Source of the DNA: Thiobacillus sp.
Lineage (GTDB): Bacteria; Pseudomonadota; Gammaproteobacteria; Burkholderiales; Thiobacillaceae
NCBI RefSeq assembly: GCF_030696885.1
Contig: NZ_JAUYRI010000003.1
Span: 1-64,000, forward strand
Reading direction: 5' to 3'
Length of the DNA: 64,000 nt
The position numbers were made by a program, and so were the translations under genes. This document shows positions 46,771 through 48,603 of this stretch, piece after piece (the stretch's first letter is position 1; each line of letters starts with the position of its first letter). The notes below the pieces were generated by a model. It was not told the DNA's origin. It was given only the letters and a program-made list of their open reading frames with translations, and searched no databases.

Positions 46771-47184
46771 ATGAAACTGCACCTCAACACCGACGCCGGC
46801 CAGCTGCTCTTCACCGGCTATGGCGCCGACCACGTCCTGATCAACGGCCACCGCTTCGATGCCGGCCTGCTGCTGACCGCGCGCGGCGTCGAGATCGCCC
46901 CCTGGGCAGGGCAGGACTTTGCGGCGCTGACCCCGGCCCATTTCGAATGGGTCGCCAGTCGCGAACTCGACATCCTGCTGCTCGGCACCGGCGCCCGCCT
47001 GCGCTTTCCCCATCCTTCGCTCACGCGCGCGCTGGTGGAGGCGCAGATCGGGCTGGAAGTGATGGACACGGGGGCGCTGTGCCGCACCTACAACATTCTG
47101 GCGGCGGAGGGGCGGAGTGTGGGGGCGGCGGTGCTGATCGAGCCGGGGGCTGGGGAATTGGGCCCGTCGGTGCGAGGCGCATAA
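46771..47184 (+). CDS. Mth938-like (DUF498) domain protein
   Basis: The 137-residue protein has the Mth938 fold signature (GVEIAPWAG, LLGTGARLRFPHPSL, GLEVMDTGALCRTYNIL). Homologues exist in mitochondria (NDUFAF3) and bacteria; function in bacteria is unclear. Its transcription runs into the palindromic repeat at 47252. Confidence 0.9.
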   Translation: MKLHLNTDAGQLLFTGYGADHVLINGHRFDAGLLLTARGVEIAPWAGQDFAALTPAHFEWVASRELDILLLGTGARLRFPHPSLTRALVEAQIGLEVMDTGALCRTYNILAAEGRSVGAAVLIEPGAGELGPSVRGA

Positions 47185-47251
47185 CACCGAAGCATCCAGC
47201 CTTTGGTTTGGTGCGGAGTACGACCGAGTAGTTACTGGCTTTGCGGAACCA

Positions 47252-47893
47252 CTGACCGTTGGCCGGGGGTAGCCCGGCGGCTAGTTGCTCGGTTCCCTCG
47301 CCTGCCTCGCCGCTGCCTTAAGGATGAACATGCCAAGGCACGTTCATCAAAGTAACCAAAGAAAAAGCGACCCCGCTCATCCCCGAAACCCCGGAAATTG
47401 AGCCTGCCGGGCGGGCGGCAAAGAACTCGCCCCGCTTTCGTAGGCATTCGAAGGTGAGCGGGGCTCAAACACCTTTGCCGCTGATCCGCCCGGCAGGCTC
47501 AATTTCCGGTGGGACTGAGAGGGGCGGCAAGTCAAAATCAGGGCAGTGATGACGGGGCGGTTTGTGTACTTGGGCGAGGACCCTATAGCTCCACTGCGAA
47601 GCCTTCGATCTGGTTCGCAATGGTGCTCAACGTCAAACTGGTTTTGACGTTCTTCCCCTTACAGACCCGCCGAAGATCAAGTGCGTCGGGTGGATCAGCG
47701 GCAAAGGTGTTTGAGCCCCGCCCACAAAAAACCAATTAAAAACAACAAGGCGGGGCGAGTTCTTTGCCGCCCACCCGACGCGCTTGATCTTCGGGAATTC
47801 GGGGCTGTCGGGGTCGCCTTTTCTTTGGTTACTTTCTTTTGGCGAGACAAAAGAAAGTGACTTGCCGCCGGGCAACCCCCGGCCAACGGTCAG
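47252..47893. repeat. Nested palindromic repeat with variable stems and constant cores
   Basis: Outer 33-base arms at 47252-47284 and 47861-47893 are inverted with 31/33 match, and next to them 27-base blocks at 47349-47375 and 47809-47835 match 26/27. Inside are two opposed modules. Each has a 24-bp stem (47391-47414/47486-47509, perfect; 47670-47693/47771-47794, one mismatch) around a constant core, whose 30-base block is identical at 47458-47487 and 47692-47721. The stem sequences differ between modules. Near each outer arm is a hairpin, 47323-47348 on the left and 47831-47858 on the right, again of different sequence. The gap 47185-47946 otherwise has no gene. Confidence 0.85.
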
Positions 47894-47946
47894 CAGCCCC
47901 GCGAAGGTTTAACCACTAAACGTGCTTCGCGCCTAGCAACAACAAC

Positions 47947-48603
47947 TCACCTATCCGGCATCACCTCCTCAAAACTCGTAATCGCCTGAAACCCCCCACA
48001 ATCTTTATGCGGCTGCCTCGAATCCGGATTGCACACCGCCAGCAACTGCCCAATGCCATAAGCCTGTGCGCTTTCCAGCACTGGCAGGCTGTCGTCGACA
48101 AACAGCGTGCGCGCCTTGTCGTACGGCTCGATCGTCTGCAATCCCTGCCAGAAATCCGGGTGCTCCTTCGGCAGGCCGACCTGGTGGGACGAGATCAGCG
48201 CGTCGAAATAGGTTTCGATCCCGGTCTCGCGCATTTTCAGGCCGAGGCTCTTGGGGTGAGCGTTGGTGACCATCACCACTCGCCGACCCGAGTGTCGCAG
48301 GGCCTTCAGGAAGGCCGGCACGTCGGGGCGCACCGCAATCAGGTGCACGACTTCTTCCTTTAGCTGCACGATGTCGAGCGCGAGTTCGCTGCTCCAGAAA
48401 TCCAGGCAGTACCAGTTGAGCGTGCCGGCGTGGCGTTCGTAGTGCTGGTCGAGGTGCGCGCGCGCCACCGCCTCGTCGAGGCCGTGGTATTCGGCATAGC
48501 GGCGCGGCATGTGCTCGCGCCAGAAATGGTTGTCGAAATGGAGATCGAGCAGGGTGCCGTCCATGTCGAGAAAGACGGTGTCGATGTGCGACCAGTTGAT
48601 CAT
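47947..48603 (-). CDS. yrfG: HAD-superfamily IMP/GMP nucleotidase, YrfG-like
   Basis: The 218-residue HAD phosphatase has motif I F-L-D-M-D-G-T-L (about residue 11), the motif III Lys (VGLPKEHPDF) and a motif IV VDD (about residue 180). The N-terminal block and FDNHFWREHMPRRYAE match YrfG (5'-nucleotidase of GMP and IMP). The start at 48603 is chosen before the HAD motif, over a longer frame from 48744 that is antisense to rpoS. Confidence 0.88.
   Translation of the reverse strand: MINWSHIDTVFLDMDGTLLDLHFDNHFWREHMPRRYAEYHGLDEAVARAHLDQHYERHAGTLNWYCLDFWSSELALDIVQLKEEVVHLIAVRPDVPAFLKALRHSGRRVVMVTNAHPKSLGLKMRETGIETYFDALISSHQVGLPKEHPDFWQGLQTIEPYDKARTLFVDDSLPVLESAQAYGIGQLLAVCNPDSRQPHKDCGGFQAITSFEEVMPDR

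Follow-up and report, generated by a model that had tools for sequence, protein, structure and literature searches.

Integron attC sites work as a folded single strand in which the stem letters vary and certain unpaired features stay fixed, and their cargo consists of single genes of mixed kind. The element analysed here, from a 64,000-nucleotide stretch of Thiobacillus DNA (the window, that is, the whole stretch under analysis), shares both traits and differs in that its Thiobacillus-type modules are inverted, not direct, with one cassette per site. In the minimal mobile elements of Neisseria, different genes lie between the same neighbours and are proposed to be exchanged by homologous recombination after DNA uptake; our element also places different genes between the same neighbours, but its cargo is bounded by structured repeats that are found empty elsewhere as well. 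Mobile insertion cassettes (MICs) have inverted ends, dispersed copies and no transposase of their own, and some of them hold passenger genes. Inverted ends, dispersed copies and the lack of an own transposase are likewise given for MITEs in PMC10969869.

The element resembles MICs and MITEs in its terminal inverted repeats (47239-47285/47860-47906 in the window) and its dispersed near-identical copies, and MICs also in that a passenger gene without a transposase occurs in 26 of 48 Thiobacillus-type elements, the window copy being empty. Unlike in MICs and MITEs, both ends are large half-elements that seem to fold strand-specifically and whose stems vary yet pair, and one site exchanges several cargos; no target duplication was seen, with the outer border uncertain by about 10 bases. 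REP sequences, which TnpA-REP binds in one strand only according to PMC8266576, offer a further comparison. Inverted pairs of hairpins with a stem irregularity are common to our element and to REP, BIME and REPIN repeats, and strand-specific recognition of single-stranded DNA is the known REP mechanism, according to the same paper. Here, however, inspection found neither GTAG nor GTGG at the foot of the module (the GTAG of hairpin 1 lies in its loop), each half comprises about 250 nt as opposed to 20-50, cargo genes are present and there is no association with REP-associated tyrosine transposases (RAYTs). A literature search, chiefly of openly accessible journals without preprints, yielded no description that we recognised as this element, and six 15-letter forms of its core had no occurrence in full article texts of the same scope.

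In our reading, which we give about an even chance of being right, the window copy is a mobile cassette without cargo that is non-autonomous, has ends folding on one specific strand and is moved by an enzyme supplied in trans. If true, Gammaproteobacteria would have a further widespread means of carrying single accessory genes, one whose structural signature allows a direct search.

Layout of the window copy

The window copy is a nested palindrome of 668 bases (47239-47906) that encloses two opposed modules with different stems, each pairing with itself. This is the architecture that a sequence-only reading of the window had put forward; the outer inverted arms, 85% complementary, reach slightly beyond the bounds given there. 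From the outside in, each half-element consists of hairpin 1, hairpin 2, a tail AAAGTAACCAAAGAAA and the module, which itself runs through stem A (24 bp), a short bulge, stem B (9 bp), an internal loop AACTC / TCAAACA and stem C. No cargo gene lies between the modules. The features are as follows.

47256-47285, no strand: left outer hairpin 1 (CCGTTGGCCGGG-GGTAG-CCCGGC...), inverted repeat I3, with its inverted copy at the right end
47323-47334/47337-47348, no strand: left side hairpin GATGAACATGCC/GGCACGTTCATC, in the place of the hairpin-2 arm TNACTTTCTTTTG of other copies
47349-47375, no strand: left conserved tail AAAGTAACCAAAGAAAAAGCGACCCCG, inverted repeat I5, with a 96% complementary inverted copy at 47809-47835
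47391-47509, outward strand, inferred to fold, is the minus strand: left module, core motif on the plus strand at 47424-47471
47391-47414/47486-47509, 47415-47423/47473-47481 and 47482-47485: stem A, stem B and bulge of the left module
47530-47561, no strand: left inner end (GTCAAAATCAG at 47531-47541), the cargo border in cargo-bearing relatives
47638-47659, no strand: right inner end (CTGGTTTTGAC at 47638-47648, then ..CCCC)
47670-47794, outward strand is the plus strand: right module, core motif on the minus strand at 47708-47761
47670-47693/47771-47794, 47698-47706/47762-47770 and 47694-47697: stem A, stem B and bulge of the right module
47809-47835, no strand: right conserved tail CGGGGTCGCCTTTTCTTTGGTTACTTT, inverted repeat I5
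47828-47841/47848-47861, no strand: right hairpin 2 (GTTACTTTCTTTTG..CAAAAGAAAGTGAC), inverted repeat I9
47862-47889, no strand: right outer hairpin 1, inverted repeat

The different 24-bp stems were correctly read as self-complementary: stem A pairs at 24 of 24 positions on the left and at 23 of 24 on the right, where the sole exception is a T.G pair on the plus strand, which at this end is the outward one. The modules are identical in stem B (GCGGCAAAG), in the bulge (TGAT) and in the core letters AACTCGCCCCGC..GCGGGGCTCAAACA, and differ in the loop of stem C. The hairpins beside the outer arms also lie where they had been placed. Compared with three other copies (L029, L030 and L038), hairpin 2 on the left lacks its first part and is partly replaced by the other hairpin listed above; a GAACATGCC..GGCATGTTC-like hairpin within the hairpin-2 region occurs in two copies of the own genome, at 47323-47348 of the window and, of the same kind and in the same place, in L038.

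Folding, which the earlier reading had suggested as a check, placed the whole element far below shuffled sequences: none of 20 shuffles came as low either for RNA, at -426.5 kcal/mol (z -32), or for DNA (z -17). The window copy matches no described RNA family among the Rfam 15 covariance models at gathering score. Elsewhere in the window, the same models give matches to a Betaproteobacteria toxic small RNA (RF02278; 26169-26236, minus strand, 53.1 bits against a cut-off of 50) and a cspA thermoregulator (RF01766; 31960-32274, plus strand, 79.2 bits against 78).

The copy sits between a plus-strand ORF that ends at 47184 and a minus-strand ORF that ends at 47947, and such a convergent setting is what a bidirectional terminator of the two genes, one of the functions first suggested, would have. 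Terminator-like sites (a G+C-rich hairpin followed by a T run) are, however, no more frequent in the window copy than by chance (2 found, 1.7 expected), and the setting is not general, with convergent neighbours at 13 of 29 Thiobacillus-type and 7 of 37 other elements by a crude longest-open-frame estimate. The strand inferred to fold is, moreover, not the one that inward transcription would read. We therefore rejected this function, which we regard as extremely improbable.

A repeat family with compensatory change in its stems

The window element is one member of a repeat family. About 11 places of the own genome carry it, of which at least four lie where a contig ends, and 33 of 35 further genomes of the genus have matches. 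The core of hairpin 1 has 12 exact matches in the own genome, all of which adjoin hairpin 2, a module or the end of a contig. A second, divergent subfamily is present in the own genome (L037, G000:C28:196800-201200; L038, G000:C2:28000-32400; L036, G000:C7); its stem C follows the type CCTGGCAGGGC../..GCCCTGCTG, and the outer arms of L037 and L038 differ as well. A further repeat, likewise dispersed and built around CATTGCGAGCGCAGCGAAGCAATCC, is located close to elements or at the site where no element is present (L030, L031, L035 and L198).

The sequence-only reading had named further copies with different but self-complementary stems as what would support it, and these exist. In a genus alignment of 52 of 59 modules (seven removed by hand), 13 of 34 stem pairs have changes on both sides. 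Paired cells amount to 96.3%, which 0 of 500 shuffles reach (shuffled value 90.4%), and covariation is 0.223, compared to 0.116 in shuffles and to values no higher than 0.094 when the partners are slid. Compensatory change in the Thiobacillus stems thus exceeds both the shuffled and the slid controls; the number of further pair types in these 52 modules (21, against 22.3 in shuffles) is not above control.

The earlier statement that structure rather than sequence is kept therefore applies to the stems and not to the whole module, as the internal loop and core (AACTC, TCARACA) and the short 3' bulge are also conserved as letters; by inspection, AACTC and GCTC..CA are invariant around the internal loop. 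Stem B is nearly purely Watson-Crick, at 1142 of 1200 pairs in 150 modules that had been selected for at least six of eight pairs.

Copies are dispersed. In one genome (G171), seven copies can be aligned across some 540 columns; their flanks are unrelated, and their ends are abrupt and inverted (GCTRGTG..GTTTCGGCC). No target-site duplication was seen by eye in these seven, in which the position of the outermost border is known to within about 10 bases. The site of the window copy is itself variable among 30 loci of different Thiobacillus: a full pair is found in four (the window's included), one module in five, outer hairpin 1 alone in two (L191 and L194), part of hairpin 1 in one, hairpins 1 and 2 in one and a short, element-free intergenic space in five, and the other 12 are not comparable or have a longer spacer in which the pattern found no module. 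Since all 12 own-genome places of hairpin 1 lie beside element parts, the lone outer hairpins look like remnants. Dispersal, presence and absence at one site and the strand-biased mismatches described below all favour the first two functions that had been considered from the window, a mobile palindrome or an element that folds as single-stranded DNA or RNA.

The strand that seems to fold

A G.T (or G.U) pair is tolerated on the strand that is used as structure, and the opposite strand then reads A.C, so that the imperfect pairs of a stem can suggest the folding strand of a repeat from genome sequence alone. We counted stem A cells in the AACTCGC direction over 154 Thiobacillus-type modules (11 of 165 were left out as their register did not fit) and found 3220 Watson-Crick, 327 A.C, 36 G.T and 113 other combinations. 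A.C is ahead at 19 of the 24 positions, G.T at three, and two are tied. Modules share ancestry, so that mismatch counts are not independent; after they were collapsed to 15 clusters at 85%, A.C still leads G.T by 34 to 11. At positions with one dominant pair, the counts are 48 to 9 where this is G-C and 31 to 7 where it is A-T, and the latter is not what a plain C-to-T bias would give.

Outside the Thiobacillus type the bias is weaker. Among 262 other modules, a set that includes the divergent copies of the own genome and viral contigs, helices were accepted by their Watson-Crick count (116 for stem B, 81 for stem A and 23 for stem C), and these contain 40 A.C and 23 G.T, with 5 of each in stem C alone. 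Given the excess of A.C over G.T in the AACTCGC direction, the opposite strand seems to be the one that folds; at either end of the element, this strand points away from the centre.

These counts weigh on the idea that compensatory change is mechanical, with replication or repair copying one arm of a quasi-palindrome onto the other and no selection on structure. The almost purely Watson-Crick stem B would agree with such copying, but it offers no reason for nine times more A.C than G.T, nor for sparing the same internal loop and bulge across genera, and we consider it improbable.

The strand bias fits RNA equally to single-stranded DNA. The folded molecule could be an outward-transcribed structured RNA, such as a 3' UTR of the cargo, an insulator or a processing signal, that persists as a relic in empty copies: G.U would be tolerated on the outward strand, as RNA, the right half-element folds very stably (z -10.3, with none of 200 shuffles as low) and the unpaired letters of the internal loop are conserved. 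Yet structure is kept at both ends, while a cargo mRNA would use one, both modules are retained in the empty elements (22 of 48), and the window copy has neither a promoter-like site that we could find nor an Rfam family. We regard an RNA as a possible but rather doubtful answer.

Cargo genes and exchange at one site

The two modules of relatives are often further apart than those of the window copy, and the genes found between them were beyond what the window sequence alone could reveal. We found 86 paired Thiobacillus-type elements, 48 of them unique after removal of 38 duplicates. Their core spacing is bimodal, at 197-233 bp in 22 (empty) and 471-1326 bp in 26 (with cargo). The 26 cargos fall into 22 sequence clusters, and 24 include an ORF of at least 60 codons. 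On its inner side, the cargo is bordered by GTCAAAACCAG, and beyond it conservation declines within about 35 bases; this anchor was chosen by us and matched 40 of 52 ends, the other 12 being left out, so that its conservation is partly one of choice.

Among 17 cargo proteins scanned, two of them from a genome outside Thiobacillus (G093), HEPN_AbiU2, DUF3592, DUF2971, RDD, DUF4145 and SHOCT were matched above the Pfam cut-off and Trypsin_2 below it. PADLOC gave weak matches to LmuA, PDC-S31, PDC-S45, PD-T7-4 and CsaX among 10 cargo proteins, and none for the AbiU2-like one. By these searches, some cargo genes resemble candidate defence genes (HEPN_AbiU2 by Pfam; LmuA, PDC-S31 and PD-T7-4 by weak matches), and others are without an assigned function.

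One chromosomal site holds different cargo genes in different species. Eight loci have one flank in common, a gene that we read as an Mpl-like ligase; five of them contain genes of four kinds (L068 and L069 share the same cargo), L081 has a short insert without a 50-codon ORF, and L077 and L086 have none. At three other loci both flanks are common and the three cargos different, and the first flank cluster unites nine elements, three empty and six with cargo from five clusters.

Different cargo at the same site between conserved neighbours is also what homologous recombination after DNA uptake would produce, with the modules as passive homology blocks: modules are alike within a genome, and crossovers in the repeats or in the flanking genes could exchange the cargo. 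It would leave unexplained the dispersed copies at unrelated flanks, the strand-biased folding and the same layout across the class, and we think it a possible though somewhat unlikely account. The explanations weighed in this work are not mutually exclusive.

The two ends of an element differ most when it is empty. None of the 22 empty elements has the same stem type at both ends, compared to 13 of the 26 with cargo; an unassigned end was counted as different (one such end in six of the empty and nine of the cargo-bearing elements), and elements with a damaged, shifted or N-filled arm were kept (at least E12, E27, E37 and E46). Stem A identity between ends has a median of 0.65 and a maximum of 0.71 in the 22 empty elements and a median of 0.86 in the 26 with cargo (Mann-Whitney p = 3e-5, nominal, since ancestry is shared), and stem B and the bulge are near-identical between the ends of empty elements. 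We also examined 36 pairs from 13 other genomes: in 32, each end resembles an end of another copy more closely than it does its own partner, while three pairs lacked a comparator and one failed. The difference is partly due to descent, the copies going back to a single ancestor whose left and right ends were already distinct. That it is relaxed when cargo is present suggests that a long palindrome, or mispairing of one end with the other, is being avoided. The comparison of empty and cargo-bearing elements ties stem divergence to spacing and, with the strand test, makes the movement of structured repeats testable.

A proposed mobile cassette moved in trans

For the mobile cassette, we propose that each end acts as a large half-element (hairpin 1, hairpin 2 and module) that would fold on the outward strand, where a trans-acting enzyme would recognise it in single-stranded DNA form, comparable to IS200/IS605-like transposases or to the handling of integron attC. 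Cargo would be gained and lost between the inner ends GTCAAAACCAG. When the ends are close, their different stems would let each fold on itself, so that the whole does not form one long, unstable palindrome, and a cargo between them would relax this need.

Our search for the mobilising enzyme found none, and we recognised no autonomous relative of the element; RAYTs, the one candidate family tested, had no association. In that reading, the element would be a giant REP, REPIN or BIME mobilised by a RAYT. RAYTs use folded single-stranded DNA strand-specifically, according to PMC8266576, and the idea looked promising after a RAYT (NF047646) was found between two modules in one genome (L497, G586), with another beside a module in a second (L528, G212). 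RAYTs (E value at most 1e-20) are nevertheless no more frequent among the module-rich genomes (6 of 21) than overall (101 of 369), and the own genome has none. A module lies near 1 of 30 RAYT loci, where the RAYT has repeats of its own and so looks like cargo. Genome association and neighbourhood thus led us to reject RAYTs as mobilisers, and we hold this explanation to be very improbable. In L497 (975-1496) and L528, the RAYT genes, with their own repeats, are cargo of modules or adjoin them.

Occurrence across Gammaproteobacteria

The core AACTCGC-[variable hairpin]-GCTCARACA recurs across Gammaproteobacteria with the same layout of stems, loop and bulge, often as inverted pairs. The pattern AACTCGC-N(3-45)-GCTCARACA matched 95 of 369 genomes of the class, 21 of them at least five times by our own count, and the reversed control never had more than three matches per genome. 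With a gap of 3-33, 74 of 398 genomes in a phylum-wide sample matched, and no genome of this sample from outside Gammaproteobacteria had more than two matches. Matches fetched from other genera have the same layout and unrelated stem letters. In one genome, G540, a similar loop is enclosed by stem C in five distinct self-complementary versions and an imperfect one, and hairpins 1 and 2 are also present in L112, which we read as Pasteurellaceae-like. We take the motif AAGTGCGGT for the uptake signal of Pasteurellaceae; it is found within the element of L112 (at 1592) and close to the module of L237 (at 4501).

We tentatively consider a class-wide gene-cassette system other than integrons, in which inverted pairs of large, strand-specifically folding ends would serve as docking sites and a recombinase would insert, remove and swap single accessory genes; that some of these genes resemble phage-defence genes, and that the recombinase acts on folded single strands, are equally tentative parts of the proposal.

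The order of paired modules is not uniform. Opposed pairs in the first seven genomes were +/- in 35 of 35 cases within 600 bp (hand count), with same-strand neighbours also occurring, and the rule that pairs are always in this order then failed in two genomes, G803 and G767. The fetched pairs from outside Thiobacillus comprise 64 in +/- order, seven in -/+, one in ++ and one in --, and in G803 all 15 adjacent pairs have the opposite order (hand count). Given the order in G803, the unit may be the half-element rather than the pair. Under the exact pattern, many matches lack a partner, as in G131, with 36 matches and five pairs within 600 bp. Inside-out modules with hairpin 2 between them are found in L494 (G803) and L472 (G767), one G803 pair having been read, and three wider G803 pairs (L491-L493) hold ORFs that by our reading resemble IS transposases.

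Searches with the element gave one weak match among plasmids, covering 11% of the query, and none among phages; of the viral-contig stretches, L237 had no match to phages and L340 none to plasmids. In viral contigs, a core match with at least seven of eight stem B pairs occurs in 10 of at least 120 stretches when matches within 15 bases of a locus end are left out; among the stretches listed, these are L237, L257, L264, L272, L320, L336, L337, L340, L349 and L351, of which L320 is chance-like. A nearly identical module is present in L237, L257, L336 and L349, and L340 (1961-2384) contains two inverted modules that share one stem C sequence.
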